From assembly GCA_903877935.1 (NCBI GenBank), contig CAIRGA010000087.1:1-48518 (forward strand): DNA of 48,518 nucleotides, in the 5' to 3' direction. Below, one piece after another: positions 2,097 to 24,642 of this stretch; position 1 is the stretch's first letter, and the number at the start of each line of letters is the position of its first letter. Under the pieces are notes generated by a model that worked only from the letters and a program-made list of their open reading frames with translations, had not been told where the DNA came from and did not search any database. Source of the DNA: an uncultured Hyphomicrobiales bacterium. GTDB lineage: Bacteria > Pseudomonadota > Alphaproteobacteria > Rhizobiales > Beijerinckiaceae. Both the position numbers and the translations under genes were made by a program.

Positions 2097-2100
2097 TCGT

Positions 2101-2802: not shown

Positions 2803-2804
2803 GG

Positions 2805-3950: not shown

Positions 3951-3952
3951 GA

Positions 3953-4651: not shown

Positions 4652-4716
4652 AAGGCGCTCGCTTTCAGCTGCGGTTTAGGGGGCCATTGATGACAGTTTC
4701 GCGACATCAAGCTTGA

Positions 4717-5517: not shown

Positions 5518-6433
5518 CGTGGGACGCTCCTTCGACGCTATCAACATAAGCGAGCGCTTCGGCGGTTGCCAATTCTTTGCCGACGTGACCTTTCGCCCGG
5601 CGATCTTCACAATAGGAACTGTCGGAGCAAACAAACATGCGCCCGCCGCGGTCATCCGTAATGACTTCATCGAGATAGCTATCGGTCGCCGCGCACAGCG
5701 CACATGGCTCTGTCCAGCTTTGGATCGTGAAAGGGTGATCCTCGAAGTCGAGGCTCTTTACCTTTGTATAGGGCGGTATGGCATAAATGCGTTTTTCGCG
5801 GCCCGCGCCGAACAATTGCAAGGCCGGCATATCGTCCATTTTCGGATTGTCGAATTTCGGAATAGGCGTTGGGGACATGACATAGCGGTCATTCACCATC
5901 ACCGGATACGAATAGGTCGTCGCCACATGGCCGAAGCGCGCAATATCCTCATACAGTCTCACATGCATCGCGCCATATTCGGCCCAAGCATGCATTTTTC
6001 TGGTCTCAACTTCCGACGGCTCAAGCCTGCGGAGCGGTTCGGGCTGCGGCACTTGATAAACCAGAATCTGCCCCGCATCGAGTGGCTTTTCTGGAATGCG
6101 ATGGCGCGTTTGAATAATGCTCGCCTCGCTCGTTTCTTCCGTCGTTGCAACACCGGATACGCGCGCAAAAAACCGACGGATCGATACCGCATTCGTGGTA
6201 TCATCGGCACCTTGGTCAATCACTTTCAAACGATCTTCCGGCCCGATGAGCGCCGCCGTAATTTGAATACCACCCGTACCCCAGCCACGCGCCAAAGGCA
6301 TCTCGCGTGACCCAAACGGAACTTGGTAACCCGGTATAGCAACGGCTTTTAGTAGAGCGCGGCGGATCATGCGCTTCGTCTGCTCGTCGAGATAGCCGAA
6401 ATTATAATCGGGATCGTGCTGAGCTGCGTTCAT
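5510..6433 (-). CDS. phnJ: Carbon-phosphorus lyase core subunit PhnJ
   Basis: PhnJ is the radical S-adenosylmethionine enzyme that breaks the carbon-phosphorus bond of ribose 1-phosphonate 5-phosphate, releasing the alkane (methane from methylphosphonate) and a cyclic ribose phosphate. The 307-residue sequence keeps the unusual cysteine set: C244, C247 and C269 for the iron-sulfur cluster, and C275 as the probable catalytic cysteine. These match the Escherichia coli residues 241, 244, 266 and 272 with a constant offset of three. The glycine-rich segment around GWGTGGIQIT is also family-typical. It overlaps phnI by four bases (ATGA) and phnK by eight, indicating coupled translation. All key residues are present, so the enzyme should be active. 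Confidence 0.97.
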   Translation of the reverse strand: MNAAQHDPDYNFGYLDEQTKRMIRRALLKAVAIPGYQVPFGSREMPLARGWGTGGIQITAALIGPEDRLKVIDQGADDTTNAVSIRRFFARVSGVATTEETSEASIIQTRHRIPEKPLDAGQILVYQVPQPEPLRRLEPSEVETRKMHAWAEYGAMHVRLYEDIARFGHVATTYSYPVMVNDRYVMSPTPIPKFDNPKMDDMPALQLFGAGREKRIYAIPPYTKVKSLDFEDHPFTIQSWTEPCALCAATDSYLDEVITDDRGGRMFVCSDSSYCEDRRAKGHVGKELATAEALAYVDSVEGASHDA

Positions 6434-7533
6434 TCTGCCGCTTCCTTCCGCTCTGCCAGGCGCTCTTCTTGTTCGCGTCGAATTTTACGAAGCAATTCCA
6501 ACTCACCTTGAAAATCGACATAATGCGGCAGTTTTAAATGCTCGACGAAGCCTGATGCTTCGACATTGTCGCAGTGATAGAGAACAAATTCTTCTTGTTG
6601 CGCCGGATACTCAGTCGCCTCACCGAACTCACGCGCCTTTAACGAGCGATCGATGATTGCCATCGACATGGCTTTGCGTTCTGCATGGCCAAAGGCAACA
6701 CCATAGCCGCGTGTGAATTGCGGCGGTTGCTCGATAGAGCCCGTAAACTGGTTGACCATCTGACATTCCGTCAAGGTGATATCGCCAAGCTCAATCGCAA
6801 AACCTAATTCTTCTGGCACAAAGGAAACTGTTACTTCGCCCATGCGGATTTCACCGGCAAACGGATGATTGCCGCCAAAGCCACGCTGCACGGAGTATGC
6901 AAGCCCGAGTAGAAAACCCTCATCGCCGCGCGATAAAGTTTGCAAACGCACATCGCGGCCTGCAGGAAACTCAACCGGATCACGCGTGAGATCGAAGGGG
7001 CGTGGATCATGCTCGGGTGGAGCTTCAACTTCCATCAAGCCTTCATCGCCCAAAATGTCGGGAACGCGCGGCATGGCAGCATCTAGCGCATAGTCGGCGG
7101 CCATTGCAGGCGGCGCCTTCTCACCGTTCGCCATCAAAGCGAAATCAAATAGACGATGCGTATAATCATAAGTAGGGCCCAAGACCTGACCGCCCGGTAA
7201 ATCCTTATAAGTAGCTGAAATACGACGGCGAATGGCCATTGTCGCCGTATCAACCGGAACCGACGAACCAAAGCGCGGCAAGGTTGTGCGATAAGCACGC
7301 ATCAAAAACGCCGCTTCGATCATATCGCCCTGCGTCTGCTTGAGAGCCAGCGCTCCCAAATCCTCGTCATAGAGCGAGCCTTCATTCATCACACGTGCGA
7401 CGGATAATTGCATCTGCTCGCGAATTTGCTCGACGCTGATTTCAGGTATCGACACGTCACCGCGGCGGTCTTCGGCCACAAGATCATGGGTTGCAAGGAT
7501 AGCGGCCTCGCCGCCTTTCACCGCGACATACAT
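6430..7533 (-). CDS. phnI: C-P lyase core subunit PhnI
   Basis: PhnI is the nucleosidase-type subunit that, with PhnG, PhnH and PhnL, replaces the adenine of ATP with the phosphonate. The 367-residue protein is of usual length. It holds the family segments ALKQTQGDMIEAAFLMRAYR near residue 63, GFGGNHPFAGEIRMGEV in the middle, and the C-terminal EHLKLPHYVDF with two histidines at 332 and 337. These two have the same five-residue spacing as the metal-binding pair in the E. coli protein. Its ATG directly abuts the phnH stop codon, and its end overlaps phnJ by four bases. Confidence 0.96.
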   Translation of the reverse strand: MYVAVKGGEAAILATHDLVAEDRRGDVSIPEISVEQIREQMQLSVARVMNEGSLYDEDLGALALKQTQGDMIEAAFLMRAYRTTLPRFGSSVPVDTATMAIRRRISATYKDLPGGQVLGPTYDYTHRLFDFALMANGEKAPPAMAADYALDAAMPRVPDILGDEGLMEVEAPPEHDPRPFDLTRDPVEFPAGRDVRLQTLSRGDEGFLLGLAYSVQRGFGGNHPFAGEIRMGEVTVSFVPEELGFAIELGDITLTECQMVNQFTGSIEQPPQFTRGYGVAFGHAERKAMSMAIIDRSLKAREFGEATEYPAQQEEFVLYHCDNVEASGFVEHLKLPHYVDFQGELELLRKIRREQEERLAERKEAAE

Positions 7534-8139
7534 TTAAAAATCCCCGATGATGCGCGTCGAACGCGGTAAAGCCGCAAGGCTCGAACCGGCGACAAAAATC
7601 AGATCAACACCTAAAGGAAAAAGTGCGTTATTATCGGCAATCTGCTTCCACATTGCCCGCTCAATTCCCTGTGGCGCAAAGACAGTCGCGTCTTTGATGC
7701 CGGGTCCTTTGAGAGTAACCGGATGGCCGTTCTCAAGCGTCGGACAAATGATGATGATGGTTGCTGATGTATCCGGATAGCGTTCATCGCCCAGACTAAA
7801 CGCATCAAGTCGCAATTCGTTAAAATCAGCAGAGACGACAGCAAATCGCGCATCCGCCGGATGCATCGGCATTGGCGCACTCGTGTGAAAGGCAAGCCAA
7901 GGGCGTATGCCGTCGAAGGGCTGCGACAGCCAAACAGGCGTCTCATAATCAGCCATCGTTAAAAGCACGGCTGCAGCAGCTGAAGGAATAGAATCCGGAA
8001 CTCCCGATAGTGTGTCCGATATCTGCATCGGCGTACTAGGCGCAGCAAACGCGTTCAGAAGCGTCCGGAAAACATGCTGCGATCCGAATACCGGATCCGC
8101 TAATCCCATAGCGAGTGAGGATTGTTCAAGAGCGCTCAT
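7534..8139 (-). CDS. phnH: C-P lyase subunit PhnH
   Basis: PhnH is a small structural subunit of the PhnGHIJ core complex. The 201-residue sequence begins in the family manner with a segment containing DPVFGSQHVFRTLLNAFAAPS and keeps the C-terminal stretch FPLGVDLIFVAGSSLAALPRST, typical of PhnH. No catalytic motif is expected. It sits two bases after phnG and directly abuts phnI, in the standard GHIJ order. Length agrees with the family. Confidence 0.95.
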   Translation of the reverse strand: MSALEQSSLAMGLADPVFGSQHVFRTLLNAFAAPSTPMQISDTLSGVPDSIPSAAAAVLLTMADYETPVWLSQPFDGIRPWLAFHTSAPMPMHPADARFAVVSADFNELRLDAFSLGDERYPDTSATIIIICPTLENGHPVTLKGPGIKDATVFAPQGIERAMWKQIADNNALFPLGVDLIFVAGSSLAALPRSTRIIGDF

Positions 8140-8141
8140 CG

Positions 8142-8597
8142 TTAGCCATCTCCGCGAACGAGGGTGAAGAAATTGACCTTTGTCGCCGCGGCCTTTCGCG
8201 ATGCCAAGTCGCGTGCTTCTGCTTGCGAGCGCTCTAACGCATCAATGCCGCTTTGCAGCATCTCAGATGTCGAATTCTCGCTTTGTAGGAGCGCGTCAAT
8301 GACGGCCGAATGTTCCGCCTTCACCCGATCGCGCCCTAGCGCGTAAGAAAACCCCATGCGCCCGTCCGTAAGCCGGATAACGCACCGGGTCATCGTCGCT
8401 TCGCCGACATTAAACCGCTGCCCTGCCCCGCCTGCGCGGCCCTCTACCATCAGCGTTCCCGTCTCGGGACGCTTGATGATGTGATAGTCGGGCAAGTCAC
8501 CCAAGCCCGATAAAAGTTTAGCAATTTCGACCGCCGAAGCGCGCGCCAAAATTCCCATCCATCGCTGCCGCGCTATATTTTTATCGCCGTCGAGCAC
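8142..8597 (-). CDS. phnG: C-P lyase subunit PhnG
   Basis: PhnG is the small subunit of the C-P lyase core that works with PhnI in forming the ribosyl phosphonate. Diagnostic segments are RQRWMGILARAS near the start and RPETGTLMVEGRAGGAGQRF followed by NVGEATMTRC. Start choice: the frame is open from a GTG at 8633 (163 residues), but that codon has no ribosome-binding site. I prefer the GTG at 8597, preceded by AAAGG eight bases upstream, which gives 151 residues, close to the family norm. With this start both PhnF-like operators lie upstream of the gene. It is the first gene of the phnGHIJKLM operon and is divergent from phnF. Confidence 0.9.
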   Translation of the reverse strand: MLDGDKNIARQRWMGILARASAVEIAKLLSGLGDLPDYHIIKRPETGTLMVEGRAGGAGQRFNVGEATMTRCVIRLTDGRMGFSYALGRDRVKAEHSAVIDALLQSENSTSEMLQSGIDALERSQAEARDLASRKAAATKVNFFTLVRGDG

Positions 8598-8636
8598 GTT
8601 CAAAACCTTTGGTTGATCTTGGTCGCAAATCACTAT

Positions 8637-8648
8637 AGGTCTAGACTT
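8637..8648. promoter_or_regulatory. Putative PhnF operator 1
   Basis: The 8-base perfect palindrome GTCTAGAC at 8639-8646 is set in AGGTCTAGACTT. It resembles the published mycobacterial PhnF operator TGGTATAGACCA and its complement. It lies in the phnG-phnF divergent region, where PhnF would repress both directions. That it binds PhnF is inferred. Confidence 0.55.
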
Positions 8649-8668
8649 ATTACAACAATTCCGATTAA

Positions 8669-8680
8669 AGGTCTATACGT
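8669..8680. promoter_or_regulatory. Putative PhnF operator 2
   Basis: AGGTCTATACGT is a second copy of the operator-like element, about 31 bases from the first (three helical turns), matching eight central bases of the known PhnF operator. The pair in one divergent promoter region suggests cooperative repression by PhnF dimers. Confidence 0.55.
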
Positions 8681-8714
8681 TTGGCGTGACGCTTTCGTGA
8701 CGGGAAATACGGTA

Positions 8715-9452
8715 ATGGCGCTACAGACCGCGAAAAAATCGGCACCCTTGACCGCTTGGAAGCGAATTGCCGACGATATTGCCTCCGAAATCGCCAGCGG
8801 CGACCACACCCCCGGCAAAGGACTGCCAACGGCTCTCGAGCTCGCTGCCCGTTACGGCGTTCACCGTCATACCGCGCGGCAGGCGCTGCGGCACTTGCAG
8901 GAGCAGGGCCTAGTCTCCGTTGAGCAAGGTAGAGGCAGCTTTGTCACCGGCCGGCGCTTTCCCTATCGCATTGGTCGCTCGGTCAGCTTCCGGCAAAATT
9001 TCAACGCCGCCGGCATTGAAGCGACCGGTAGGATCCTATCGGTTCATTGTATCACCATTCCCATCAGCATTTCGCAATCACTCGGCTTAGCAACGTCCGA
9101 ATCGGTTTGGCGGGTGGAGGCTCTCAACTCAGCCGGCGGTAAACCCATATCACTGTCGATCCATTATCTATCAACGATCCGATTTCCCGATTTTCCATCC
9201 GTGCTCCGCGATCACAACACCTCGATCACCGAAGCCTTCCGGTTTTATGGCATCGACACCTATCGCAGGCTGTCGACATCGCTCTCGGCCCGCATCGCGA
9301 CACAGGAAGAGGTCGCACGCCTCGACCTCACTTATGGCGACCCCGTTTTAACCTCGGAAGGTATTGATAGCCTCGTCGACGGCACGCCCTTGCAAGTAGT
9401 CGAAAGCGCGTTTTCGCCCGCACGTGTACAATTTGTCGTTGAAGCCGATTAA
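8715..9452 (+). CDS. phnF: Phosphonate operon regulator PhnF (GntR/HutC family)
   Basis: PhnF is a GntR-family repressor of the HutC subfamily linked to phosphonate genes. From the ATG at 8715 it has 245 residues: a winged helix-turn-helix at about 10-80 (with LPTALELAARYGVHRHTARQ) and a UTRA ligand-binding domain from about 95 to the end. The open frame runs 34 codons further upstream, but that part covers the divergent promoter and the operator-like palindromes. It is divergent from phnG. It ends tail-to-tail with phnE2 so that the two stop codons overlap in TTAA. The effector is not known; phosphate or a phosphonate is likely. Confidence 0.92.
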   Translation: MALQTAKKSAPLTAWKRIADDIASEIASGDHTPGKGLPTALELAARYGVHRHTARQALRHLQEQGLVSVEQGRGSFVTGRRFPYRIGRSVSFRQNFNAAGIEATGRILSVHCITIPISISQSLGLATSESVWRVEALNSAGGKPISLSIHYLSTIRFPDFPSVLRDHNTSITEAFRFYGIDTYRRLSTSLSARIATQEEVARLDLTYGDPVLTSEGIDSLVDGTPLQVVESAFSPARVQFVVEAD

Positions 9453-10324
9453 ACCGGACGCGCGCCTATAATAGCAACGCGAAGCCGGCTTGAAATCCAA
9501 TCAATCGCTGCGACCGTCATCAATATCAGTAGGATAATAAATGACGTCTCTTCCCACAAATAAGTGCGGATTGTTTCAGTCAAATAAAGCCCAATGCCGC
9601 CCGCACCAACAATACCGATAATCGTCGTTGTGCGCGTATTTGATTCAAAGAAATACAGCACTTGCCCAAGGAGCACGGGCAAGATTTGCGGCACAATTCC
9701 GAATCGAATGCTTTCAAGCCGTGAACCACCAGAAGCCACAATGCCTTCGACGGGCTTTTGATCAGCAGCCTCGATCGCTTCGGAAAATAATTTTCCAAAG
9801 GCACCAAAATCAGACGTGATGATCGCAAGCACACCGGCAAAGGGGCCGAGCCCCACAACGCCCACCCAGATCAAGGCCCAAATCAAGGTATCAATGCCGC
9901 GGATAATATCGAGGAAGCGCCGCGCGGCATAATGCACAAAAGAATTGGAAACAATATTTCTGGCCGCAAGAAATCCAAACGGCAGCGCCAGCACGGCAGC
10001 GCAAATGGTACCAAAAAATGCCATCGACAATGTTTCAATGACACCCTTGATAAAGGTAAAAGCGTTTTCCCATGAACCGGGATCGGGAGGCATCATGGCA
10101 CCAACCACGATCCCGAACTTGCCAAATCCATTGATCAGCATCAGCGGTGTAAAACCGATATAATAAAGACCAAAAATATAGAGCGCCAACAAAAAGCCAA
10201 CAAAGATCGACGTCTGCACACGCTGCTTCGGATCGCCCTGAAAAAGGGCTGAATGCTTGCGGCGCATATGCTCCAAATCGGGGAATCGTTCTCCGATAGC
10301 TGCTTTTTGGAGATGTCTTTTCAT
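9449..10324 (-). CDS. phnE: Phosphonate ABC transporter permease PhnE (second copy)
   Basis: This 291-residue protein is an inner-membrane permease subunit of the PhnCDE importer, with about six hydrophobic segments. The permease-ATPase coupling loop lies around GSRLESIRFGIVPQILPVLLGQ. The N terminus carries a charged cytoplasmic stretch (about 40 residues) before the first membrane segment. Its ATG overlaps the stop of the preceding permease gene by four bases. Alphaproteobacterial phn operons often carry two phnE paralogues that may pair as a heterodimer; that is the likely arrangement here. It is the last gene of the phnCDE1E2 operon. Confidence 0.95.
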   Translation of the reverse strand: MKRHLQKAAIGERFPDLEHMRRKHSALFQGDPKQRVQTSIFVGFLLALYIFGLYYIGFTPLMLINGFGKFGIVVGAMMPPDPGSWENAFTFIKGVIETLSMAFFGTICAAVLALPFGFLAARNIVSNSFVHYAARRFLDIIRGIDTLIWALIWVGVVGLGPFAGVLAIITSDFGAFGKLFSEAIEAADQKPVEGIVASGGSRLESIRFGIVPQILPVLLGQVLYFFESNTRTTTIIGIVGAGGIGLYLTETIRTYLWEETSFIILLILMTVAAIDWISSRLRVAIIGARPV

Positions 10325-11205
10325 GACGTCGTATCCATAGCAATCATACGATGACGGATTTTCTCGGTACCATAATCGATCACCATGACCGTTAAGATGA
10401 TGATGATCAGCACGGCGCCAACGTCCACATAGTAAAACTTGCGAACATATTCGATGAGCAATTGGCCAATACCGCCCGCACCGACAAAGCCCATGACCGA
10501 TGCGCCACGAACATTCACCTCAAATCGGAGCAGAGAATAACTCGTAAAGTTTGAAAGCACTTGCGGCACGACGCCAAAGCGAATTTGCTGGAACCATGTC
10601 GCGCCGCTGGCACGCAGCCCTTCGACCGGTTTCATGTCAATATTATCAACAATTTCAGAAAATAATTTTCCCAACGCGCCCGTTGTATGAATGGCGAGGG
10701 CGAGCACCCCTGGGAATGGTCCAAGCCCAAAGCTGACCACGAAAATAAGCGCGAAGGTCACATCTGGAACCGTGCGGAAAAATTCAAGAAGGCGACGAGT
10801 CAAAAATTGCGACCAGCTATTAACCGCCATACTGCCGCTTGCAAAGAAGGCTAGAAAAAAGGCCGCAACTGCTCCTGTAACCGTACCAACATAGGCGATC
10901 AAAAGAGTCTCGGACATATAGCGAAGCCATTTGCCCAAACCCCAATACCATTCGGCGACATCGTCGAAAAAGGTCGTAACCCCTATATGAGGGGTCATAT
11001 CATAAAAATAGCGCGGAAATTTCCAAAAATTGGTGACAAATTTGTGAGGATCAACTTCAGCGCCAAAAGCTGCCAGAAAAATCAAAAGAACAACGATGAT
11101 GGATCCAAGGAATAACTGTCGCCGCTTCTGCGCAACCGTTGCCGCATAGACCGACTGCAAATGCGCACTTTGATCATGCGGCAAGGGTTGGATTGCAGTA
11201 GCCAA
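10321..11205 (-). CDS. phnE: Phosphonate ABC transporter permease PhnE (first copy)
   Basis: This is the first of two adjacent PhnE permeases, with about six membrane segments and the coupling-loop sequence GATWFQQIRFGVVPQVLSNF. Start choice: the frame is open from an ATG at 11259, but the first 18 codons from there would cover the hairpin downstream of phnD and give an uncharacteristic N terminus. I prefer the TTG at 11205, preceded by GGAGAA at good spacing, giving 294 residues. A TTG start plus the hairpin would keep permease output below that of the binding protein. The gene is followed by the second phnE with a four-base overlap. Confidence 0.92.
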   Translation of the reverse strand: MATAIQPLPHDQSAHLQSVYAATVAQKRRQLFLGSIIVVLLIFLAAFGAEVDPHKFVTNFWKFPRYFYDMTPHIGVTTFFDDVAEWYWGLGKWLRYMSETLLIAYVGTVTGAVAAFFLAFFASGSMAVNSWSQFLTRRLLEFFRTVPDVTFALIFVVSFGLGPFPGVLALAIHTTGALGKLFSEIVDNIDMKPVEGLRASGATWFQQIRFGVVPQVLSNFTSYSLLRFEVNVRGASVMGFVGAGGIGQLLIEYVRKFYYVDVGAVLIIIILTVMVIDYGTEKIRHRMIAMDTTS

Positions 11206-11230
11206 TGCACTTCTCCAAAAAAATGAGTCG

Positions 11231-11256
11231 AAAGGCGGCGGAAAATCGCCGCCTTT
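11231..11256 (-). terminator. Intra-operon hairpin between phnD and phnE
   Basis: This is a perfect 10-base stem (AAAGGCGGCG at 11231-11240, complement at 11247-11256) with a 6-base loop. On the transcribed minus strand a run of seven T follows about seven bases later. It sits between the binding-protein gene and the first permease gene, so it probably acts as a partial terminator or 3'-end stabiliser of phnD mRNA. Confidence 0.75.
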
Positions 11257-11270
11257 CAATCCTTCAGATA

Positions 11271-12182
11271 TCAGGACTTCTTCTTGAGTTCGTCGACGAA
11301 CTTAACAAGATTGATCGTTGGCTGATATTCTTCAGTCGATGTTGCCTGGAACGGTGCCTTTTTACCATTGGTTGCCTTGGCAAAAGCTTCTGGATCCTTT
11401 TCAGCAGCCGACAGGATGGCCGACTTGATTTTAGACTTCAACTCATCAGGCATCGAATTAAGAATCGCGATTGGTCCGTTCAGGATCGACTGCGACTTAT
11501 AGATGATGCGCAAGTCGCTCATCTTCAAAAGACCCTTTTGATCCGCATGAAGTGCATCGGAGTCATTTTCGTTGGTCCATGCGTTAAAGCATGCATCGAA
11601 CGTGCCCTGAGCCACGCCAATTGCTGCATTCTCATGCGTACCGGCATAGACAACCTTCGAGAAGAACTTGTCTGGATCAATGCCCAGCTTGTTCATTTCG
11701 AAGCGCGGAACATTGTTGCCCGAGGTTGAATTCGGATCAACCAGACCAAGGGTTTTGCCCTTAAGATCTTCGAGCTTTTGGAAAGGGCTGTCCTTTTTCA
11801 CGTAAACAACGGAAAAATAGCCTTTTGAACCGTCTTTGTTCACTTCAATCGCAATTGGAGAGATATTCGCGCCGACGATGATCGAGCGAGCGAAAGAAGC
11901 AGCGCCGTAATAGCCAATATTGATGGTCTCTTCCTTCTGGCCCTGAACAACAGCGGCATAGTCATTCACGATACGCAGCTTTACAGGAACGCCAATTTCC
12001 TTTGAAAGATAGTCCATGAAAGGCTGGTAGCGATTGGTCGTGTCCGCCGCATTTTCAGCAGGAACGATTGCAAAGGAAAGTTCTGGATATTTGGACTTCC
12101 ACTCTTGGGCGAAAGCGCCCGAAGCGGCTCCAACAACTGCCATAGCAGCGGTGGCGGCAAGCATAATGCGACGCGTGATCAT
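11271..12182 (-). CDS. phnD: Phosphonate ABC transporter substrate-binding protein PhnD
   Basis: PhnD is the periplasmic phosphonate-binding protein of the PhnCDE importer. The 303-residue sequence starts with a Sec signal peptide (two arginines, hydrophobic core, probable cleavage after AFA at about residue 25). A type II periplasmic binding domain follows, with the family segments FAIVPAENAADTTNRYQPF near the mature N terminus and the Ser/Thr-rich binding region VDPNSTSGNNVPRFEM. A strong AAGGAG ribosome-binding site precedes the ATG. It lies 76 bases downstream of phnC and is followed by a strong hairpin. Confidence 0.96.
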   Translation of the reverse strand: MITRRIMLAATAAMAVVGAASGAFAQEWKSKYPELSFAIVPAENAADTTNRYQPFMDYLSKEIGVPVKLRIVNDYAAVVQGQKEETINIGYYGAASFARSIIVGANISPIAIEVNKDGSKGYFSVVYVKKDSPFQKLEDLKGKTLGLVDPNSTSGNNVPRFEMNKLGIDPDKFFSKVVYAGTHENAAIGVAQGTFDACFNAWTNENDSDALHADQKGLLKMSDLRIIYKSQSILNGPIAILNSMPDELKSKIKSAILSAAEKDPEAFAKATNGKKAPFQATSTEEYQPTINLVKFVDELKKKS

Positions 12183-12258
12183 GGTCTTCGTCTCCTTGTG
12201 GTCATATCGTTTGGTGAATTTACCAGTCGGCGCGGATACGGGTCCGTGTCGTAGGTTG

Positions 12259-13059
12259 TTAGGCCACTACTGCCATGCCCGACGGCATATCAACAGGAGC
12301 GGAATTGGTATTCATGACTTCATGCGCTTCAAGGCCATAAAGTTCGCGCGCAACGTCTTCGGTCAGTGCAGACGGAACATCATCAAACACAACCCGGCCC
12401 TGCGCCATGCCAACAAGACGTTCGCAATAGGTGCGGGCGAGATCGAGCGAATGAAGATTGCAAATGACCGTGATTCCAAAATGCTTATTGATCCGCAAAA
12501 GCGCATCCATCACGATTTTTGTGTTACGCGGATCAAGCGATGCTATTGGCTCATCGGCCAAAATAATATCGGGCTCTTGCACCAAAGCGCGGCAAATGGC
12601 GACGCGCTGCTGTTGACCACCGGATAATTGATCCGCACGCTGTGCCGCAAGATTGGCGATATCGAATTGTTCGAGCGCTGCAAGAGCGATGGCTTTGTCA
12701 TCGTCGCCCCAAAGCTTCAACATGGTACGCCAGCCGGGTGCCTCTGAAAGTCGGCCCATAAGAACATTCGTTAGAACATCCAAGCGGCCAACAAGATTAA
12801 ATTGCTGAAAAATCATGGAGCACCGACGGCGCCATTCACGAAGCTCGGCGCCCTTGAGTGCTGTGACATCAACACCGTCGAACATGATCCGACCATGGGT
12901 TGGATCATTCAAACGGTTAATCATCCGAAGCAGCGTCGATTTACCTGCGCCCGAGCGTCCAATAACGCCTACAAAGCTACCGGGCTTTATCGAAAGAGAG
13001 ACCGAATCAACCGCTGGGTTGGTCCCGTAAATTTTGCTCAATCCATCAATGACCAGCAT
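12259..13059 (-). CDS. phnC: Phosphonate ABC transporter ATP-binding protein PhnC
   Basis: PhnC is the ATPase of the phosphonate importer. In its 266 residues Walker [10 protein letters not shown] is at 34-42, the Q-loop region is [13 protein letters not shown], and the signature [15 protein letters not shown] is followed by Walker [13 protein letters not shown]. The long loop between Q-loop and signature ([17 protein letters not shown]) is typical of PhnC. A GGAG ribosome-binding site precedes the ATG. It is the first gene of phnCDE1E2 and has a tandem Pho box about 44 bases upstream, implying induction by phosphate starvation. Confidence 0.96.
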
Positions 13060-13102: not shown

Positions 13103-13131
13103 ATGACAACGACATGACAGGCTGTGGACAG
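13103..13131 (-). promoter_or_regulatory. Tandem Pho box upstream of phnC
   Basis: On the minus strand there are three 7-base repeats, CTGTCCA, CTGTCAT and TTGTCAT, each separated by four bases. This is the 11-base periodicity of PhoB binding sites (consensus CTGTCAT, 4-base spacer, CTGTCAT). The element ends 43 bases before the phnC start codon, as expected for an activator site replacing the -35 element. Confidence 0.85.
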
Positions 13132-16588: not shown

Positions 16589-17656
16589 TTAGCCCAGTCG
16601 TCGTCCCGTCGTCGAATCGAAAAAGTGCATCGCGCTTGCAGGAATGGTTACGCTCATCGACGTCGTCGCATCAAGTGGCCCGTTGCCCGGAATCGCAATA
16701 ACGGCCTCTTCATTAGCGACCGTGCCATGCAACAGGCGGGTGGAACCGAGCGCTTCTTGAAAACCGGGCGTCAATGTCAGGCCGATCTGCTCACTCAATT
16801 GCGCCTGCTCGGCACGAAAGCCAAAAATAGCCGGGCCATCCGGGACCAGCACCGCTTGGCCGTGCTCGAACGGAAGGGTTTGCCCGTCCTTAAAACGGAT
16901 ACAAGAAGCGGACCGATCAACCATAACGTGCAACAAATTTAATCCCGGTGATCCAACAAAGCTTGCCACATAGGTCGAGGCCGGACGATGGTAAACCTCA
17001 TCGGGCGTCCCCACCTGCTCGATCACACCTTTGTTCATCACGACGATGCGATCAGCCAAGGTCATCGCCTCGATTTGATCATGCGTGACAAAGAGTGAGG
17101 TCGTGCCGAGACGTTGGTGGAGTTTTCGGATTTCGGCACGCATGGCGACCCGTAATCGAGCATCAAGATTAGACAAGGGCTCGTCATATAAAAAAACATC
17201 CGGCTCGCGGATCATTGCTCGACCCATAGCAACCCGTTGTCGCTGGCCACCGGAAAGCTGTATCGGCTTACGGTCAAGAAATTCTTCTAAACCCAATATC
17301 TCAGCAACGGCATTAATCCGTGCCATTCGCTCCGCTTTACCAAGACCCGCAACCTTCAACGCATAGCCGATATTTTCAGCCACCGTCATATGCGGATAGA
17401 GCGCGTAATTCTGGAACACCATCGCGCAACCCCGTTCGCGAGGCTCAAGTGTATTGACGATTTTTGAGCCAATGGAAATCTCACCCTCGGTAATCGCCTC
17501 CAAACCCGCAATCATCCGCAATAATGTAGATTTCCCGCAGCCCGATGGCCCAAGAATGACGACAAATTCGCCGGCCTTGATCTCGAGATCGACCCCATGA
17601 ACCACCGTCGTGGTGCCATAATTTTTTTTGACGCGTTTTAGCGTTACAGCAGCCAT
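16589..17656 (-). CDS. ugpC: sn-Glycerol-3-phosphate ABC transporter ATPase UgpC
   Basis: UgpC is the ATPase of the glycerol-3-phosphate and glycerophosphodiester importer. In its 355 residues Walker [10 protein letters not shown] is at 36-44, signature [15 protein letters not shown], Walker [13 protein letters not shown], the switch histidine in [15 protein letters not shown], and a C-terminal regulatory (TOBE/OB) domain from about 240. The family is close to MalK-type sugar ATPases; the ugpBAE neighbours on the same strand decide the assignment. It follows ugpE after ten bases and is followed by a CorA/ZntB-type gene. Confidence 0.94.
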
Positions 17657-17666
17657 TGTTTAAATC

Positions 17667-18599
17667 CTATTTTTCGGTAGCGATTAGACCGCGCACAAAA
17701 TAGCGCTGCATGAACGCAACAAGCAGAAGCGGCGGAAGCATCACAATCAAGCAACCGGCCATGGCGACGTTCCAATCCGGTGTTCCCCCGCCATTCGTCG
17801 ATACGGTCGGGGCCAGCAATTTGAGTTCGACGACAGCTGTCGTTCCAAACCCCGCACGATCCGGCGTTGCCAACAAAGGCCAGAGATATTGGTTCCACGC
17901 ATAAAGGAACATGATCGTAAAGAGAGCTGCCATATTGGCACGTGACAGCGGCATCAAGAATTCGACGAGAAACCGGAAAGGTCCCGCGCCATCCATGCGA
18001 GCCGCTTCGAGTAATTCGTCGGGCACGGTTAAGAAAAACTGACGGTACAAAAACGTGCCCGTTGCGGTTGCAATGAGAGGTAAAATCAATCCGGTATAGG
18101 AATTCAATAAATTCCACTCAAGCGCTATTTGAAGGCCCGATGCCGCCTTGATAAGATCGGATAACCCCGTTGCATCTAAAATGCTCTGGAACGGCCAAAG
18201 GGCATTCGCGGCCACAGCATAAGTGGGCACGATGCGCACTTCGAGCGGCAGCATCAGCGTTATAAAGATCAACCAAAAGGCGAGCGTTCGTCCGGGAAAA
18301 CGAAAATAAACAAGGCCGAAGGCGGTGATCGCCGACATCGCGACTTTTCCAAAGGCAACACCCAACGACATGATGAGACTATTGAAAAGACGCCCACCAA
18401 GATGACCCCGAGCCCACGCCGCTTGGAGATTTTCGATGAGATGCGATCCTGTTAAAAAATGCAGTTCTGGCGTATTGATTTCTCGAACGGTTAGCGTCGC
18501 GCCGACATAAACGAGCCACAGCGGCACAAACACCATCAATGCGCCAAGCACCATCACGGTATAAGTCGCAAGATTAAGCAGTGGCGTACGTTCAATCAT
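17667..18599 (-). CDS. ugpE: sn-Glycerol-3-phosphate ABC transporter permease UgpE, with an insertion
   Basis: UgpE is one of the two membrane subunits of the Ugp importer, with six predicted membrane segments and the coupling loop EAARMDGAGPFRFLVEFLMPL. The C terminus MQRYFVRGLIATEK is characteristic. At 310 residues it is about 29 longer than the usual 281. Relative to familiar UgpE sequences there is an extra segment between VRIVPTYAVA and NSYTGLILPL, at about residues 130-165 (including LWPFQSILDATGLSDLIKAA), in a loop between membrane segments. Whether this affects transport is unknown. It lies nine bases after ugpA. Confidence 0.92.
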   Translation of the reverse strand: MIERTPLLNLATYTVMVLGALMVFVPLWLVYVGATLTVREINTPELHFLTGSHLIENLQAAWARGHLGGRLFNSLIMSLGVAFGKVAMSAITAFGLVYFRFPGRTLAFWLIFITLMLPLEVRIVPTYAVAANALWPFQSILDATGLSDLIKAASGLQIALEWNLLNSYTGLILPLIATATGTFLYRQFFLTVPDELLEAARMDGAGPFRFLVEFLMPLSRANMAALFTIMFLYAWNQYLWPLLATPDRAGFGTTAVVELKLLAPTVSTNGGGTPDWNVAMAGCLIVMLPPLLLVAFMQRYFVRGLIATEK

Positions 18600-18608
18600 T
18601 GTGTCATC

Positions 18609-19493
18609 TCAGCTATAATGCACGCGCCGCTCGATATAGCGGAACTGGAAAAAAGTGAGCACCATCATGATCAGCATCAACACAATCGATTGAGCCGCGG
18701 CACCCGAATAATCAAGGCCACGAAAGCCATCGAAATAAATTTTATAGACCAAGAGTTCAGTGGCCTTTCCCGGCCCGCCATCGGTCATCACGTCAACAAT
18801 GCCGAACGAATCTTGAAAACTATCGGTAATGCTGATCACCAGCATAAAAAAGAAAGTCGGCGTAATCAGCGGCAATTGAATATCGAAAACCCGGCGTAAA
18901 ACGCTCGCGCCATCCAGAGCACTGGCCTCAATCACCGAGCGTGGAATGGCTTGCAAGGCTGCTAGGAAAAAGATGAAGCAATAGGCTGCATATTTCCACG
19001 AATAACAGATGATAATCATCGTCATCGCATGATAGCCATTCTGTGCCGGATTCCAGAATTCGGGGTTTTGTTTTACCAACGCCGAAAAGATACCTGCCTC
19101 AGGCGCAAAAATAAAACGAAACGCCAAAGCCGCCGCCGGCGCTACAACCGCATAAGGCCACACAAAGACCGTTCGAAAGGCCTGATAGCCCTTTAAGCCG
19201 CGATCACACGCCACAGCGAGAAGAAGGCCAAAGGCCATTGAGAGGGTTGCCGTCGAAGCTGCAAACATTAAACTTCGAATAATCGAACCCCAATAGGCAC
19301 GGTCGGCAAAGACTTGACGAAAATTATCAAAGCCGACCCACTCATTTCCACCGCCCCATGGACGTTCCAGCGTGAACGCCCAAAACATCGCGGCACCGGT
19401 TGGCCAATAAAAGAAAATAAAGACGAGCAGAATTTGCGGTAGGATGAAAGCCATACCAAGCCAGCCCATCGCAAAGGTTGCGCGCTTTTCCAT
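18609..19493 (-). CDS. ugpA: sn-Glycerol-3-phosphate ABC transporter permease UgpA
   Basis: UgpA is the partner permease of UgpE. The 294-residue protein has six hydrophobic segments, starting with FILPQILLVFIFFYWPTGAA. The coupling loop is EASALDGASVLRRVFDIQLPL, and VMTDGGPGKATELLVYKIYFDGF is typical of UgpA near the C terminus. It is separated from ugpB by 84 bases that hold a strong hairpin, and is followed by ugpE after nine bases. Length agrees with the family. Confidence 0.94.
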   Translation of the reverse strand: MEKRATFAMGWLGMAFILPQILLVFIFFYWPTGAAMFWAFTLERPWGGGNEWVGFDNFRQVFADRAYWGSIIRSLMFAASTATLSMAFGLLLAVACDRGLKGYQAFRTVFVWPYAVVAPAAALAFRFIFAPEAGIFSALVKQNPEFWNPAQNGYHAMTMIIICYSWKYAAYCFIFFLAALQAIPRSVIEASALDGASVLRRVFDIQLPLITPTFFFMLVISITDSFQDSFGIVDVMTDGGPGKATELLVYKIYFDGFRGLDYSGAAAQSIVLMLIMMVLTFFQFRYIERRVHYS

Positions 19494-19577: not shown

Positions 19578-20906
19578 TCAAGGCAGCATCTTGCCGGCAT
19601 AGGTCTTCTCAAACTTGCGCAGAACCACGTTTGAACGCTCAACCGCAGAATTGAGACCCTCTTCAACCGAAACCTTGTTTGCGAAGATGTCGGTCAGAGC
19701 GTCGCGCATTTCTTTACGGATTTGCACAAAACCGCCGAGGCGGATACCGCGGGTATTTTCATTGACCGGAGACGCATTGAGCGACGCAATTGCCAGCTCG
19801 CGGCCTTTATACGGTGCCTTGTCATAAAAGCCTTGAGCTTTCATGAACTCGAAGCCTGACTTCGTGACGGGGATATAACCCGTATTGGTCGACCAGAAGA
19901 GTGCCGAATCAGGTTGGGCGATGAAGTTAAAGAACGCAGCCGCGCCCTTATATTCCGCATCAGACTTGCCTTGCAGCGCCCAAAGCGAGGCACCACCGAC
20001 GAGCGAATTGTGACGCTCAACACCGGCCAGTGTTGGCAGCATCGCAACATCCCATTTCATGTCGGGCTTTTGCGTCTTGGAAACGGTACCATGGTCGGCA
20101 ATCGAGGAGAGCATTACTTGGCAATCCGTATTGGCGAAGGCCTGCACGATTGTAGCGCCCGTATCCGGTGTCTTGATCTTCACAAGACCATCATCATAGG
20201 CCTTTTTGAGAGACTTGATCACGTCAACATATTTTCCCTTATTGACGATGAATTCAGTATCGAGGCCTTGATAACCATTACCCTTGGTTGCAACGGGAAT
20301 ATTGTTGATCGCGGAGAACTGCTCCATAATCGGCCAGGTATCGTAATTCCAAGCCATTGGGCATTCATAGCCTGCCGCCTTAAGGGCTTTGAGCGAGTCA
20401 AATGTTTCTTCCCACGTCTTCGGCGCCTCGGTTTTGCCAATCTTGGCAAACGCGTCTTTGTTCCAATACATCATCGCGGTCGAGGAATTGAATGGGAAAG
20501 AGTTCAGCTCGCCCTTAGAGTTCGCGTAATAATTGGAGATCGCGGGAATATAATCATCCCAATTGATCTTGTAGCCATTATCCGCCATCAATTTCCGGGC
20601 CGGAACATAGGCTTCGGAGAGCAGGAGATCGAGCGTTCCCGCATCGAAAATCTGAACAATGGTTGGGTTTTTCTTGGCGCGGTAGGCGGCAATCGCGTTC
20701 TGCAGCGCATTGTCGTAGGAGCCTTGCGATGTGCAAATGATTTCATAATCGCTTTGCGAGTCATTAAAGCGCTTGCAAACTTGGTCGACCACACCGCCGA
20801 GATCGCCGGTCAAGCCATGCCACATTTCAAATTTAACGCGCTCCGCCGCTTGGGCCGTAGCGGTCATCAGCAAGGCGGCAAGGGTAATCAGGAATTTGGA
20901 CTTCAT
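19578..20906 (-). CDS. ugpB: sn-Glycerol-3-phosphate-binding protein UgpB
   Basis: UgpB is the periplasmic binding protein for glycerol-3-phosphate and its diesters. The 442-residue sequence has a Sec signal peptide (cleavage after AQA, about residue 20) and a mature start ERVKFEMWHGLTGDLGG, where WHG and the following residues are typical of UgpB. Further family-like stretches are SFPFNSSTAMMYWNKDAF and VGGASLWAL. It is the first gene of the ugpBAEC operon, with a possible Pho box about 60 bases upstream. No lipoprotein motif is seen, so the protein should be freely periplasmic. Confidence 0.94.
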   Translation of the reverse strand: MKSKFLITLAALLMTATAQAAERVKFEMWHGLTGDLGGVVDQVCKRFNDSQSDYEIICTSQGSYDNALQNAIAAYRAKKNPTIVQIFDAGTLDLLLSEAYVPARKLMADNGYKINWDDYIPAISNYYANSKGELNSFPFNSSTAMMYWNKDAFAKIGKTEAPKTWEETFDSLKALKAAGYECPMAWNYDTWPIMEQFSAINNIPVATKGNGYQGLDTEFIVNKGKYVDVIKSLKKAYDDGLVKIKTPDTGATIVQAFANTDCQVMLSSIADHGTVSKTQKPDMKWDVAMLPTLAGVERHNSLVGGASLWALQGKSDAEYKGAAAFFNFIAQPDSALFWSTNTGYIPVTKSGFEFMKAQGFYDKAPYKGRELAIASLNASPVNENTRGIRLGGFVQIRKEMRDALTDIFANKVSVEEGLNSAVERSNVVLRKFEKTYAGKMLP

Positions 20907-20965
20907 CGAGCAGCTCCGTCGAAAATGGGTTCAATCCGTCGAGGCTGCTTCTCTATCGGTGGAGC

Positions 20966-20994
20966 ATGACATTCTGTCGAATATCGCATGACAC
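20966..20994 (-). promoter_or_regulatory. Possible Pho box upstream of ugpB
   Basis: On the minus strand GTGTCAT and ATGTCAT are 22 bases apart (two 11-base periods), with a poor middle repeat (TATTCGA). The outer repeats fit the PhoB half-site. ugp operons are classic Pho regulon members, but this site is weaker than those at phnC and the phosphatase. Confidence 0.45.
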
Positions 20995-21100
20995 TTTTAT
21001 AACGAAACGTCGTGATTGATGCCTCACAGGATGTCATCGTGTCGTCGTGAAAGCACGCCATGGCAGACGATGATTTGGTTAGCTTGTTGGGTAGGGTGCT

Positions 21101-22150
21101 ATGAAATCCATCGTCGATGCCGTTGTTAGGCGATTTGAACCTTTAAGTGCAGACGTCATCGAATTAGCGCAGTCCGGCACAGCCAGCCGAGAGCGGCATG
21201 ATACCTGCCTAAAGGCCATTCCCGCCTTTGCAACACTTGAGCATGTTCCGTCCCGCGCCCCTTTAAGGTCGCGGCGCGCTAATGGCCGGTTCGTCGCCTT
21301 TTCTTGGAACGCAGAGCGGTTGAAATACGATATCGAATCGCGGGCTCTGATCGGCGCCGTAGCACCCGATATTGTTCTGCTGACCGAAGTCGATATCGGC
21401 ATGGCACGCTCTGGCAACCGCCACACGGTCCGTGATTTGGCCGCACCCATGGGAGCAGGCTATGTCTACGCGCTTGAATTTGCCGAACTCGGCTTGGGCG
21501 ACAGCCGGGAGATGCAATGGCATCAAGGCCAAACCAACACCTATGGCTATCACGGCAATGCCATTGTTTCGAGCCATACGATGCACGAGCCTTTCGCCAT
21601 CCGGTTGGATGACGGCGCTTACTGGTTCACAGGCCTTGATACCCTTGATCAACGGCGAATTGGCTTTCGCAATGCCCTCGCGGTTCGCATTGGTGAGGGC
21701 GACGCAGGAATATGGTGCGTAGCCGCACATTTCGAGAACCGCGCCACACCCGAAACACGGGCGGATCAAGCAAGACGATTAATTAAAGCGCTAGACGCGC
21801 GGACCGGCGATCTTCCTATTGTAATCGGTGGCGATTTTAACACGAGTACCTTGCCAACCGATCCTGCGGAATTAGCACGTATCTTTAACGACCCATCCGC
21901 CATTGAACCGATGTTTGCCGTTTTCCGAGATGCTGGATTCGAATGGCAATCGTCCAATGTGCCCGAAGCCTCGTGCCGCACGCGGCCGGATGGAACACCC
22001 GTAGGCCCGTTTACAAAAATCGATTGGTTTTTTACCCGCGGGCTTGAAGCCTCCGATCCCGCAACGCTTCCTGCGATTGACGCAGAAGGTCAAGCCATAT
22101 CTGATCACGAGGCCCTCCGCGTTACCCTCGTTAATCCCCGCCTAAAATAG
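21101..22150 (+). CDS. Endonuclease/exonuclease/phosphatase-fold hydrolase
   Basis: This 349-residue protein is a metal-dependent hydrolase of the EEP (DNase I-like) superfamily. Catalytic residues are visible: N70 in SWNAERL, E96 in LLTEVDIG, H151 in YHGNAIVS, D245 and N247 in GGDFNTS, and D335-H336 in ISDHEAL. No signal peptide is visible, so it acts in the cytoplasm. The family covers nucleases, inositol-phosphate phosphatases and phospholipid diesterases. Because it is divergent from ugpB and no glycerophosphodiester phosphodiesterase gene (ugpQ) is in the window, a role in cutting imported glycerophosphodiesters is a reasonable guess, not shown. The first 60 residues are a poorly conserved extension. 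It is followed by an isomerase gene after 55 bases. Confidence 0.85.
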   Translation: MKSIVDAVVRRFEPLSADVIELAQSGTASRERHDTCLKAIPAFATLEHVPSRAPLRSRRANGRFVAFSWNAERLKYDIESRALIGAVAPDIVLLTEVDIGMARSGNRHTVRDLAAPMGAGYVYALEFAELGLGDSREMQWHQGQTNTYGYHGNAIVSSHTMHEPFAIRLDDGAYWFTGLDTLDQRRIGFRNALAVRIGEGDAGIWCVAAHFENRATPETRADQARRLIKALDARTGDLPIVIGGDFNTSTLPTDPAELARIFNDPSAIEPMFAVFRDAGFEWQSSNVPEASCRTRPDGTPVGPFTKIDWFFTRGLEASDPATLPAIDAEGQAISDHEALRVTLVNPRLK

Positions 22151-22205
22151 CCTATGCTTTAGAATGTATCAAAACCGATCAATCAAAGTCTGAATGGAGC
22201 CTAAG

Positions 22206-23036
22206 ATGTCAGCAGCAAAATCTTCCCTTCCCGTCCTTGGTGCAGCGCTTAATGTCGATGGCCTAAGACTGCATAAAGACTGGATCGTCGATATGCATCG
22301 GGATCTTGAGCTGCAGGATTTTATATGGGCCGACCGTCTCAACGGCGACTGGAAGATTGTTGCCGATGACATCAAGAAGATGCTCAAGAAGCATAAAGGC
22401 CGCGTCGGCATTCATGGCCCTTTTTGGGGCCTAACGCTCGATAATATGGACCCCGAAATCAGGGCTATTGTTACCAAACGTATGCTGCAAGGCATGGACG
22501 TGTGCGATTATCTTGGCGCGACCCATATGGTCATTCATTCGCCCTACACCACATGGGATCATTATAATCTGGATTATAATCCCGGCAGCCGATTGGAAAT
22601 CATCGAACGCGTCCACGAGACGCTTGAACCTGTTGTCCGACGGGCCGAAGAAATCGGCTGCGAGTTGGTCATCGAAAACATCGAAGACGTCGATCCGCAT
22701 GCACGCGTCGACTTGGCTAAATCCTTCGACAGCGACGCGGTTAAAGTGTCGCTCGATACAGGCCATGCAAATTATGCGTTCGGATCAACAAATGGACCTC
22801 CGGTTGACTATTATGTCCGGGCCGCGGGCGACATGCTGACCCATGTGCATCTTCATGACACCGATGGCCATGCCGATCGCCATTGGGCGCCAGGTGACGG
22901 AAATATCCCGTGGATGGAAGTGTTTCGGGCCTTGTCGCAGCTAACCTCTCATCCCCGTCTTATTCTCGAACTGAGAGATAAAACGCGCCTGCGGGCGGGA
23001 GCCGATTATTTAATCGAGCTTGGGGTCGCTGTTTAA
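22206..23036 (+). CDS. Sugar phosphate isomerase/epimerase family TIM barrel
   Basis: This 276-residue protein belongs to the xylose-isomerase-like TIM-barrel family (AP endonuclease family 2 fold). Metal and substrate motifs visible are GIHGPFWGLTLD, HMVIHSPYTTW, LVIENIEDVDP with the conserved glutamate, VSLDTGHANYAFG and HVHLHDTDGHADRH. The last three carry the usual Glu, Asp/His and His ligands. The ATG at 22206 is preferred, with GGAG seven bases upstream; an ATG at 22194 overlaps that site. It probably forms an operon with the EEP-fold hydrolase before it. Substrate unknown; a polyol or sugar released from a phosphodiester head group is possible (inference). Confidence 0.85.
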   Translation: MSAAKSSLPVLGAALNVDGLRLHKDWIVDMHRDLELQDFIWADRLNGDWKIVADDIKKMLKKHKGRVGIHGPFWGLTLDNMDPEIRAIVTKRMLQGMDVCDYLGATHMVIHSPYTTWDHYNLDYNPGSRLEIIERVHETLEPVVRRAEEIGCELVIENIEDVDPHARVDLAKSFDSDAVKVSLDTGHANYAFGSTNGPPVDYYVRAAGDMLTHVHLHDTDGHADRHWAPGDGNIPWMEVFRALSQLTSHPRLILELRDKTRLRAGADYLIELGVAV

Positions 23037-23481: not shown

Positions 23482-24642
23482 ATGAATCGCTCTTATCTTG
23501 AATCTTTTTTGCCTCCGTCACGCCTCTTACTTGGCCCAGGCCCCTCTCCGGTTGCACCGGAAGTTTTGATGGCCATGGCTGGCCCAACCATTGGCCATCT
23601 TGACCCTGCCTTTATCGGCCTCATGTCCGAAATTAAAACGATGCTCCAATTGGCGTTTGGTACCACGAACGACGTTACCTTCGCGGTTGCGGGACCGGGT
23701 AGCCTTGGCATGGACGCCTGCGTGCTGAATTTGATCGAGCCGGGCGATAAAATTCTGATCGCGCGCAATGGCGTCTTCGGGACACGCATGTGTGAAGTAG
23801 CGTTACGCGGTGGAGCGCAAGTCATCCCGCTCGATTTTACGTGGGGCACCCCGATTGATCCACAAGCAATCGAGGATGCGCTAAAAGAACACAAAGACAT
23901 TAAATTCGTTGGCTTTGTGCATGCCGAAACCTCAACCGGTGTTCAGTCCGATGCCGCTGCCATTGCAGCCATAGCGCAGAAATATGGTGCCTTGACGATT
24001 ATGGATGCGGTTACCTCGCTTGCTGGCATCCCGATCAAGCTGGACGAATGGGGCATCGACGCCGTCTATTCTGGCAGTCAGAAATGCCTGAGCTGTCCGC
24101 CCGGCCTCTCGCCTGTGTCCTTCAGTCCGCGCGCGGTTGAGCACGTCAAACATCGTAAGTCCCGCGTTCTTTCGTGGTTCCTCGATATTACACAGGTAAT
24201 GTCCTATTGGGGTGGTGACAAAGCGCGCGCCTATCACCACACGGCTCCGGTAAACAGCCTTTATGCCCTTCACGAGTCCTTGCGTCGGCTGCATGTCGAA
24301 GGCATCGAAGCATCTATTGCACGCCATCGGGCGGCGCATTTGCAATTGGCGGAGGGGTTAACGGCACTGGGTCTCGAACTTTTGGTTGATGAGCCTTTCC
24401 GACTACCACAATTAAACGCCATCAAAATTCCATCGACCATCAACGATGCTCCGTTGCGGGCATCGCTGCTAAACGATTTTAATATCGAGATCGGTGCCGG
24501 ACTTGGCCCACTTGCGGGTAAGATATGGCGTGTCGGATTGATGGGTGAAGGCGCAAGGCCGCAGCATGTCTCTCGTTTGCTACAAACGCTCGACAACGCG
24601 ATGGAAAACCAACGCAATGAAGCGATTTCGCTAGCGAGTTGA
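23482..24642 (+). CDS. Class V aminotransferase (alanine/serine-glyoxylate type)
   Basis: This 386-residue PLP enzyme of aminotransferase class V is closest in pattern to alanine-glyoxylate and serine-glyoxylate aminotransferases. Features are LLLGPGPSPVAPEVL at 15-29, the cofactor-binding VFGTRMCEVA, HAETSTGVQSD, DAVTSLAG, the PLP lysine at K201 in SGSQKCLSCPPGLSPVSFS, and YHHTAPVNSLYALHE. It would transfer an amino group to glyoxylate, making glycine, with alanine or serine as donor. Formate-tetrahydrofolate ligase in the same region fits serine-glycine and one-carbon metabolism. A role as a phosphonate aminotransferase (PhnW) seems less likely from the motifs. It stands alone after a long intergenic region. 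Confidence 0.88.
   Translation: MNRSYLESFLPPSRLLLGPGPSPVAPEVLMAMAGPTIGHLDPAFIGLMSEIKTMLQLAFGTTNDVTFAVAGPGSLGMDACVLNLIEPGDKILIARNGVFGTRMCEVALRGGAQVIPLDFTWGTPIDPQAIEDALKEHKDIKFVGFVHAETSTGVQSDAAAIAAIAQKYGALTIMDAVTSLAGIPIKLDEWGIDAVYSGSQKCLSCPPGLSPVSFSPRAVEHVKHRKSRVLSWFLDITQVMSYWGGDKARAYHHTAPVNSLYALHESLRRLHVEGIEASIARHRAAHLQLAEGLTALGLELLVDEPFRLPQLNAIKIPSTINDAPLRASLLNDFNIEIGAGLGPLAGKIWRVGLMGEGARPQHVSRLLQTLDNAMENQRNEAISLAS

Follow-up and report, generated by a model that had tools for sequence, protein, structure and literature searches.

An EEP-fold hydrolase and a candidate three-metal TIM-barrel hydrolase accompany ugp importers with a changed binding pocket

Ugp is a textbook importer for phosphorus scavenging, and the presence of the transporter genes is often enough for it to be annotated as a glycerol 3-phosphate (G3P) transporter. 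In Escherichia coli, the diester-cutting step is performed by UgpQ, a protein of the GDPD family, the gene for which overlaps ugpC by 4 bases. Here we describe a ugp locus from an uncultured Hyphomicrobiales bacterium in which ugpBAEC stands divergent from a pair of genes encoding an EEP-fold hydrolase (hereafter EEP) and a TIM-barrel protein. The window, by which we mean the whole stretch of DNA analysed, is 48,518 nucleotides long and comprises contig C87 in full; the draft genome to which it belongs totals 2.7 Mb. The locus is laid out as follows:

16589-17656, minus strand: ugpC ATPase (NF008653, above cut-off)
17667-18599, minus strand: ugpE permease (top model UgpE, score just under its cut-off)
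18609-19493, minus strand: ugpA permease (top model UgpA, score under its cut-off)
19578-20906, minus strand: ugpB, variant pocket (NF008211 and alignment)
20907-21100: divergent ugpB/EEP gap of 194 bp, with short genus-conserved blocks that are weakly Pho-box-like
21101-22150, plus strand: EEP-fold hydrolase, 349 amino acids (PF03372, E 1.1e-12)
22194-23036, plus strand: TIM-barrel protein, 280 amino acids (PF01261, AP_endonuc_2, E 3.5e-32)

We found that genes of this EEP subfamily and of the TIM family are linked to ugp well beyond the window's genus, at operons in which the UgpB pocket is changed. The likeliest reading, which we hold with moderate confidence, is that the EEP protein takes the role of UgpQ.

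The EEP protein scored 48.7 bits against PF03372 (curated cut-off 24.5), and eight residues that we take to be the catalytic set of the superfamily (Asn, Glu, His, Asp/Asn and Asp-His; here N70, E96, H210, D245, N247, D308, D335 and H336) were invariant in 10 homologues. Among 19 homologues, the sole exceptions were one gap each at H210, D308, D335 and H336, and one Arg at N247. By profile and by catalytic residues, the protein belongs to the EEP superfamily, in agreement with the initial annotation, which had called it an EEP-fold hydrolase with all catalytic residues. It is probably cytoplasmic, as no signal peptide was seen by eye. The TIM gene follows 43 bp downstream, and the same arrangement is found in five further genomes of the genus, with orthologue identities of 65-79% for EEP and 63-93% for the TIM protein, so both are real genes. 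In a sample of 12 genomes of the genus, the window's included, EEP was present in 6 and the TIM gene in 7; the order ugpB-EEP-TIM was kept in 6/6 EEP-bearing genomes, and in the seventh TIM-bearing genome (G006) the TIM gene lies on a 5.4-kb contig without ugpB. One genome of the same genus has a tandem ugpB pair (L030:2681-5511); compared with the ugpB of the window, its members show 77% and 95% identity.

We surveyed how often EEP is linked to ugp across 248 genomes from G081's family, which we took as Rhodobacteraceae (closely similar named loci belong to Paracoccaceae and Roseobacteraceae). An EEP family profile gave 31 matches, and a UgpB profile gave 143 rows that were used, with the weaker second half of a split ugpB in G478 excluded; by UgpB score, these fell into 8 window-type, 93 canonical and 42 variant ugpBs. 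With linkage defined as an EEP on the same strand and at most 6 kb from ugpB, 23 of the 31 EEP matches were linked to a ugpB, always one of the variant class. Counted by ugpB, EEP accompanied 23/42 variant, 0/93 canonical and 0/8 window-type genes (Fisher, variant versus canonical, 8e-15). Of 25 variant loci read, 13 carried EEP, all 13 in the order ugpB-A-E-C-EEP, and the EEP match started between -3 and +93 bp relative to the ugpC stop (in L228 it falls in two pieces). The ugpC end is the place of ugpQ in E. coli, and the hydrolases therefore probably cut imported compounds. In other variant loci this post-ugpC place is held by a GDPD (L217), by a weak 2H-phosphodiesterase match (L227) or by an inositol-monophosphatase-family gene directly after ugpC (L207:13032-13838 and L215:11765-12619), where EEP stands elsewhere. 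None of the sought families was found in the remaining eight, one of which (L218) ends before ugpC, so that an EEP there could not be seen. In the window's genus, EEP lies on the opposite side of ugpB, so that the link arose, or underwent rearrangement, on two or more occasions. Identity between the window's EEP and the EEPs of variant ugp loci is 29-34%. Conserved ugp-EEP-isomerase neighbourhoods, a search for which the initial annotation had proposed, thus exist in the window's genus, and EEP stands beside ugp in a second setting as well.

What these importers bind may be read from the UgpB pocket. For Phaeobacter UgpB, PMC12718374 gives nine glycerol phosphate contacts, Tyr64, Glu88, Ser143, Trp188, Trp191, Ser266, Gly303, Tyr342 and Arg393, which we located in the present proteins with E. 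coli UgpB as intermediary, using the offset in numbering and the alignment. According to that source, canonical UgpB binds G3P and glycerol 1-phosphate (G1P), the glycerol of which is clamped by both Trp residues; the Trp pair arose as the pocket shrank from that of glycerophosphocholine-type binders, and the glycerophosphocholine binder of Mycobacterium tuberculosis has Asp102 at the place of Glu88. The window's UgpB is a UgpB-like variant (337.2 bits against NF008211, cut-off 411, covering 9-435 of 442) that keeps 7/9 contacts, with Glu88 replaced by Asp and Trp188 by Tyr. Window-type UgpBs had Asp at 88 and no Trp188 in 17/17 readable rows, and variant UgpBs had Asp at 88 in 25/27 and no Trp188 in 26/27 rows, whereas canonical UgpBs had Glu88 in 32/34 and Trp188 in 32/34 rows. 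Because Trp188 is lost and Asp replaces Glu88, the two UgpB classes that accompany EEP or TIM resemble, by sequence, diester binders more closely. The same data bear on the possibility that EEP is a phosphomonoesterase, ugp importing glycerol phosphate from which EEP frees inorganic phosphate. EEP families include phosphatases, and the ligands of canonical UgpB together with the seven retained contacts would suit such a reaction; however, the UgpB classes that EEP accompanies nearly all lack Trp188 and Glu88, and none of the 93 canonical ugpBs has an EEP at most 6 kb away, so that we consider this unlikely.

The initial annotation had argued that the window lacks a gene of the UgpQ type. When the whole genome was searched with PF03009, there was indeed no match on contig C87, and E. 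coli UgpQ gave no phmmer match to either EEP or the TIM protein, which in Pfam match only PF03372 and PF01261, respectively, and no GDPD domain. The search did, however, find a single GDPD on contig C207, next to RidA-like and FemAB-like open reading frames (ORFs; labels by eye). Because the genome encodes a GDPD on another contig, the lack of a UgpQ in the window carries no weight. We also rejected the inference of a lost and replaced ugpQ from the absence of GDPD, as a GDPD match lies near ugp in just 4/34 canonical ugpB loci in the stretches read.

The second gene had been labelled a TIM-barrel isomerase/epimerase. The barrel is well founded: the protein scored 112.5 bits against PF01261 (cut-off 31.1), and its predicted model (pLDDT, a per-residue confidence score, 89.9) showed a TIM-barrel fold with Foldseek matches, led by MJ1311 and TTHB071 and otherwise mostly epimerases, with AP endonucleases at ranks 32 and 39. 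The fold by itself does not decide the function. The protein has a nine-ligand metal site of the endonuclease IV type (H74, H115, E161, D188, H191, H219, D228, H230 and E259), with all nine ligands invariant in 21 homologues. An hhalign comparison with E. coli endonuclease IV (Nfo) gave a probability of 88 and an E of 3e-6 with all nine ligands aligned; the Nfo residues are those we take to be its metal ligands, with positions from the alignment. As aligned to the TIM protein, the ketose 3-epimerase 3vnk has neither the DxH pair nor the second His. Because all nine endonuclease IV ligands are invariant, 'isomerase' is probably wrong, and we think it likely that the TIM protein is a phosphoester hydrolase of the endonuclease IV-like three-metal type. 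There was no endonuclease IV model among its NCBIfam matches and no match to Nfo in a single-sequence phmmer search.

The initial annotation had suggested that the substrate of EEP could be a glycerophosphodiester whose head group is a sugar or inositol, the TIM protein being a true isomerase or epimerase for the freed polyol. That EEP and TIM are linked to ugp fits this equally, the NCBIfam models that the TIM protein matches are epimerases and CbiR, all far under cut-off (D-tagatose/psicose 3-epimerase equivalog, 33.8 bits against 300; CbiR equivalog, 40.9 against 105), many D-tagatose/psicose 3-epimerases are in its Foldseek list, and an inositol-monophosphatase-family gene follows ugpC in 2/25 variant loci. 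Those two loci are, however, the exception, and no inositol or sugar catabolic gene is among the annotated flanking genes, which lie in the window up to about 27 kb. The TIM family also occurs among carbon-phosphorus (C-P) lyase genes, and to our knowledge no free polyol is expected in the C-P lyase pathway. Together with the metal site, these points make an isomerase reading rather unlikely, and the inositol head group finds little support.

The C-P lyase genes concern the window itself, which carries an operon for this pathway that the initial annotation did not mention:

About 896-13059: C-P lyase region (hexapeptide acetyltransferase, AAA kinase-like ORF, DUF1045, phnM, phnL, phnK, phnJ, phnI, phnH, phnG, phnF, two phnE, phnD, phnC)
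1485-2096, plus strand: AAA/zeta-toxin-like kinase ORF, at the place where phnN might be expected
2101-2832: DUF1045 (RcsF-type 2H phosphoesterase), in place of phnP
5510-6433: phnJ
8613-9452, plus strand: phnF

Of these, phnK (an ABC ATPase) was named by place, and one phnE and phnC by place and Pfam only. Two overlapping Pho-box-like sites (13103 and 13114, span 13103-13131, minus strand; 13 and 12 of 14 bases) lie just upstream of phnC, and the ugpB-EEP gap has weak half-matches only. Enrichment of Pho boxes in the window as a whole was considered and dropped, since the 5 sites counted are no evidence when shuffled sequence gives a mean of 3.2.

The TIM gene and C-P lyase occur together across genomes. 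phnJ was present in 13/16 genomes with the TIM gene versus 72/426 without it (Fisher 7.5e-8; union of the class and relatives samples, which share three genomes) and in 14/15 TIM-bearing named-locus genomes tested (15 of 20), and, counted by hand, in 40/56 with versus 79/192 without it among Rhodobacteraceae-like genomes (Fisher 5e-5), with the caveat that genomes sharing ancestry are not independent samples. In the genus and relatives survey, TIM matches with E above 1e-8 were too weak to be taken as members. The TIM gene lay at most 6 kb from 7/8 window-type, 0/93 canonical and 2/42 variant ugpBs (both variant genes are in G566, beside one TIM gene), a count into which the first 40 of 66 TIM matches were entered, the other 26 by eye sharing no contig with a ugpB match. 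Further ugp-linked TIM genes were found in Thalassobaculum (L048) and in G025 (L034). Gene contexts of 98 TIM loci, read by tblastn and labelled by hand, comprised 15 ugp-linked loci (6 of them from the window's genus), 21 phn, 9 dipeptide-type importers and 9 other carbohydrate-type importers; L105, L121 and L053 carry the label 'phn' although the part of each locus that was read shows no phnJ, and L116 is labelled 'other' though two variant ugpBs lie at most 6 kb away. Phosphoesterases of other folds also occur in several loci: a type I phosphodiesterase (PF01663) adjoining in L034 and 6.6 kb away in L050, a calcineurin-type protein (PF00149) in L107, L108 and L120, another EEP in L107 and L171, a HAD protein in L109, and a 2H-type phosphoesterase in L113, L143, L171, L115 and L116.

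These contexts raise the possibility that the TIM protein serves phosphonate breakdown proper, for example by hydrolysing the cyclic ribose phosphate that C-P lyase produces, as PhnP does, and that its place beside ugp is incidental here. Among phn genes (21/98 loci) the TIM gene is usually next to phnM, the TIM-bearing divergent phn operons lack DUF1045 in the stretches read, and no PhnP scored above cut-off in 36 genomes searched, 35 of which had weaker sub-cut-off matches. RcsF, a 2H-superfamily gene of phn operons without phnP, has been suggested as a PhnP stand-in (PMC3840354, PMC10574752), and we equated DUF1045 with RcsF by superfamily and place. Because the window's phn operon carries its own DUF1045 and five Rhodobacteraceae-like loci (L118, L119, L130, L134 and L136) have both genes, we rejected a PhnP replacement as the main reading of the TIM protein. 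On a tree built by a quick method, the ugp label changed 7 times, at least 3 of them forced by well supported branches, and the phn label twice; the phn-linked TIM forms, except one, therefore form a single clade, apart from the window's, and the ugp link recurs in several clades. A role in phosphonate breakdown proper is thus unlikely.

Divergent C-P lyase operons, each with two or three PhnM paralogues, were seen in Rhodobacteraceae-like loci L054, L055, L058-L062, L071, L106, L111, L114 and L119. In many of these there is, besides, another PhnD/C/E set together with one or two methyltransferases and the TIM protein. As far as they were read, the divergent operons showed no DUF1045, although the canonical operon next to that of L119 contains one.

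To return to EEP in the role of UgpQ, the variant UgpB with its opened pocket would import glycerophosphodiesters or comparable esters of phosphate (or phosphonate), the cytoplasmic EEP would cut the diester, which is the step of UgpQ in E. coli, and the TIM protein, as a second three-metal hydrolase, may act on this substrate or a related one by breaking a P-O bond. The freed phosphate, glycerol phosphate or phosphonate would then pass to central metabolism or to the C-P lyase, whose genes lie at a distance of 8 to 20 kb. That ugp and the divergent pair form one phosphorus-scavenging module with non-orthologous hydrolases, possibly under joint regulation, seems to us on balance probable, if narrowly so. 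Of the proposal that the pair is an alternative to UgpQ, the part concerning EEP is upheld by its linkage to ugpB, its place at the ugpC end and the changed pocket, and the parts concerning an isomerase and an inositol head group are not. Because C-P lyase is present, phosphonate-ester substrates are possible: variant Ugp might import glyceryl phosphonate esters or deacylated phosphonolipid head groups from which EEP and TIM free phosphonate for C-P lyase, an undescribed route that we regard as quite improbable.

Several observations weigh against this scheme. Nearly half of the variant ugpB rows (19/42) have no EEP nearby, and the classes themselves were set by scores against a profile built from 8 linked UgpBs and E. 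coli UgpB; the UgpB rows behind the pocket counts are related by descent and are not independent events. Eight of the 31 EEP matches have no ugpB within 6 kb: for two the distance is 38 and 956 kb, a third is on the opposite strand 9.6 kb away, four have ugpB on other contigs only, and in G532, which has no ugpB match, EEP lies 1.4 kb from the contig start. EEP homologues of G014, G024 and G050 do not adjoin ugpB, that of G030 lies upstream of a different ABC importer, and window-type loci outside the window's genus had an EEP of this subfamily within 6 kb in 0/8. Nearly half of the TIM loci (44/98) have none of the four importer contexts, the TIM protein's Foldseek list holds more epimerases than AP endonucleases, and the genome has its own GDPD. 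EEP is without a close solved structure (no phmmer match; best profile match TDP2, 6.9e-5), and its structure prediction was poor (pLDDT 43).

The data suggest that at least two ugp classes with a changed pocket are served by non-orthologous hydrolases, which annotation names 'endonuclease/exonuclease/phosphatase' and 'sugar isomerase'. If this is true, enzymes not yet counted as such allow a number of Alphaproteobacteria from aquatic habitats to use diesters (or phosphonate esters), and a testable function is offered for an EEP subfamily and for a tri-metal TIM-barrel family.

Further genes flank the locus. A calcineurin-like phosphoesterase (PF00149, 14170-15441), downstream of ugpC past a CorA-like ORF (label by eye), is possibly a further phosphoesterase of the same island. 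A class V aminotransferase (23482-24642) after the TIM gene resembles 2-aminoethylphosphonate and pyridoxamine-pyruvate aminotransferases, far under both cut-offs. Elsewhere, at L135:3114-4570, ugpB is broken into two ORFs by a frameshift or an assembly error.

A search at title and abstract level, mostly outside subscription papers, found no EEP or AP_endonuc_2 protein described as a Ugp partner. The closest described system is E. coli ugpBAECQ, with which the locus shares the set and order of transporter genes and the phosphate contacts of UgpB. In both, a hydrolase gene adjoins the transporter, and in variant loci it stands exactly at the ugpC end. It differs in having no GDPD in the operon, with EEP (PF03372) and the tri-metal TIM protein instead, in a UgpB that lacks Trp188 and has Asp for Glu88, and in hydrolase genes that, in the window, are divergent from ugpB. 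M. tuberculosis UgpB likewise has Asp at the Glu88 position and the phosphate-contacting Tyr and Ser, but Trp191 is kept in the window's UgpB and the sequence similarity is distant (4mfi, 6r1b). Among the TIM protein's relatives, endonuclease IV shares the barrel and nine aligned metal ligands, at 24% identity in the profile alignment, whereas the contexts here are phosphorus importers and C-P lyase. CbiR, described in PMC7733943 as a cobamide-remodelling phosphodiesterase and thus an AP_endonuc_2 member that cuts a small-molecule phosphodiester, is distantly similar (1.7e-10), with a score far under the CbiR cut-off. The closest solved relatives by sequence are TTHB071 (3ayt/3ayv, 1e-21) and MJ1311 (3wqo, 1e-20), which are titled uncharacterised in the PDB, two papers that name TTHB071 being, by title, on different topics; in the aligned parts, both share His, Glu, Asp and DxH ligands with the TIM protein.

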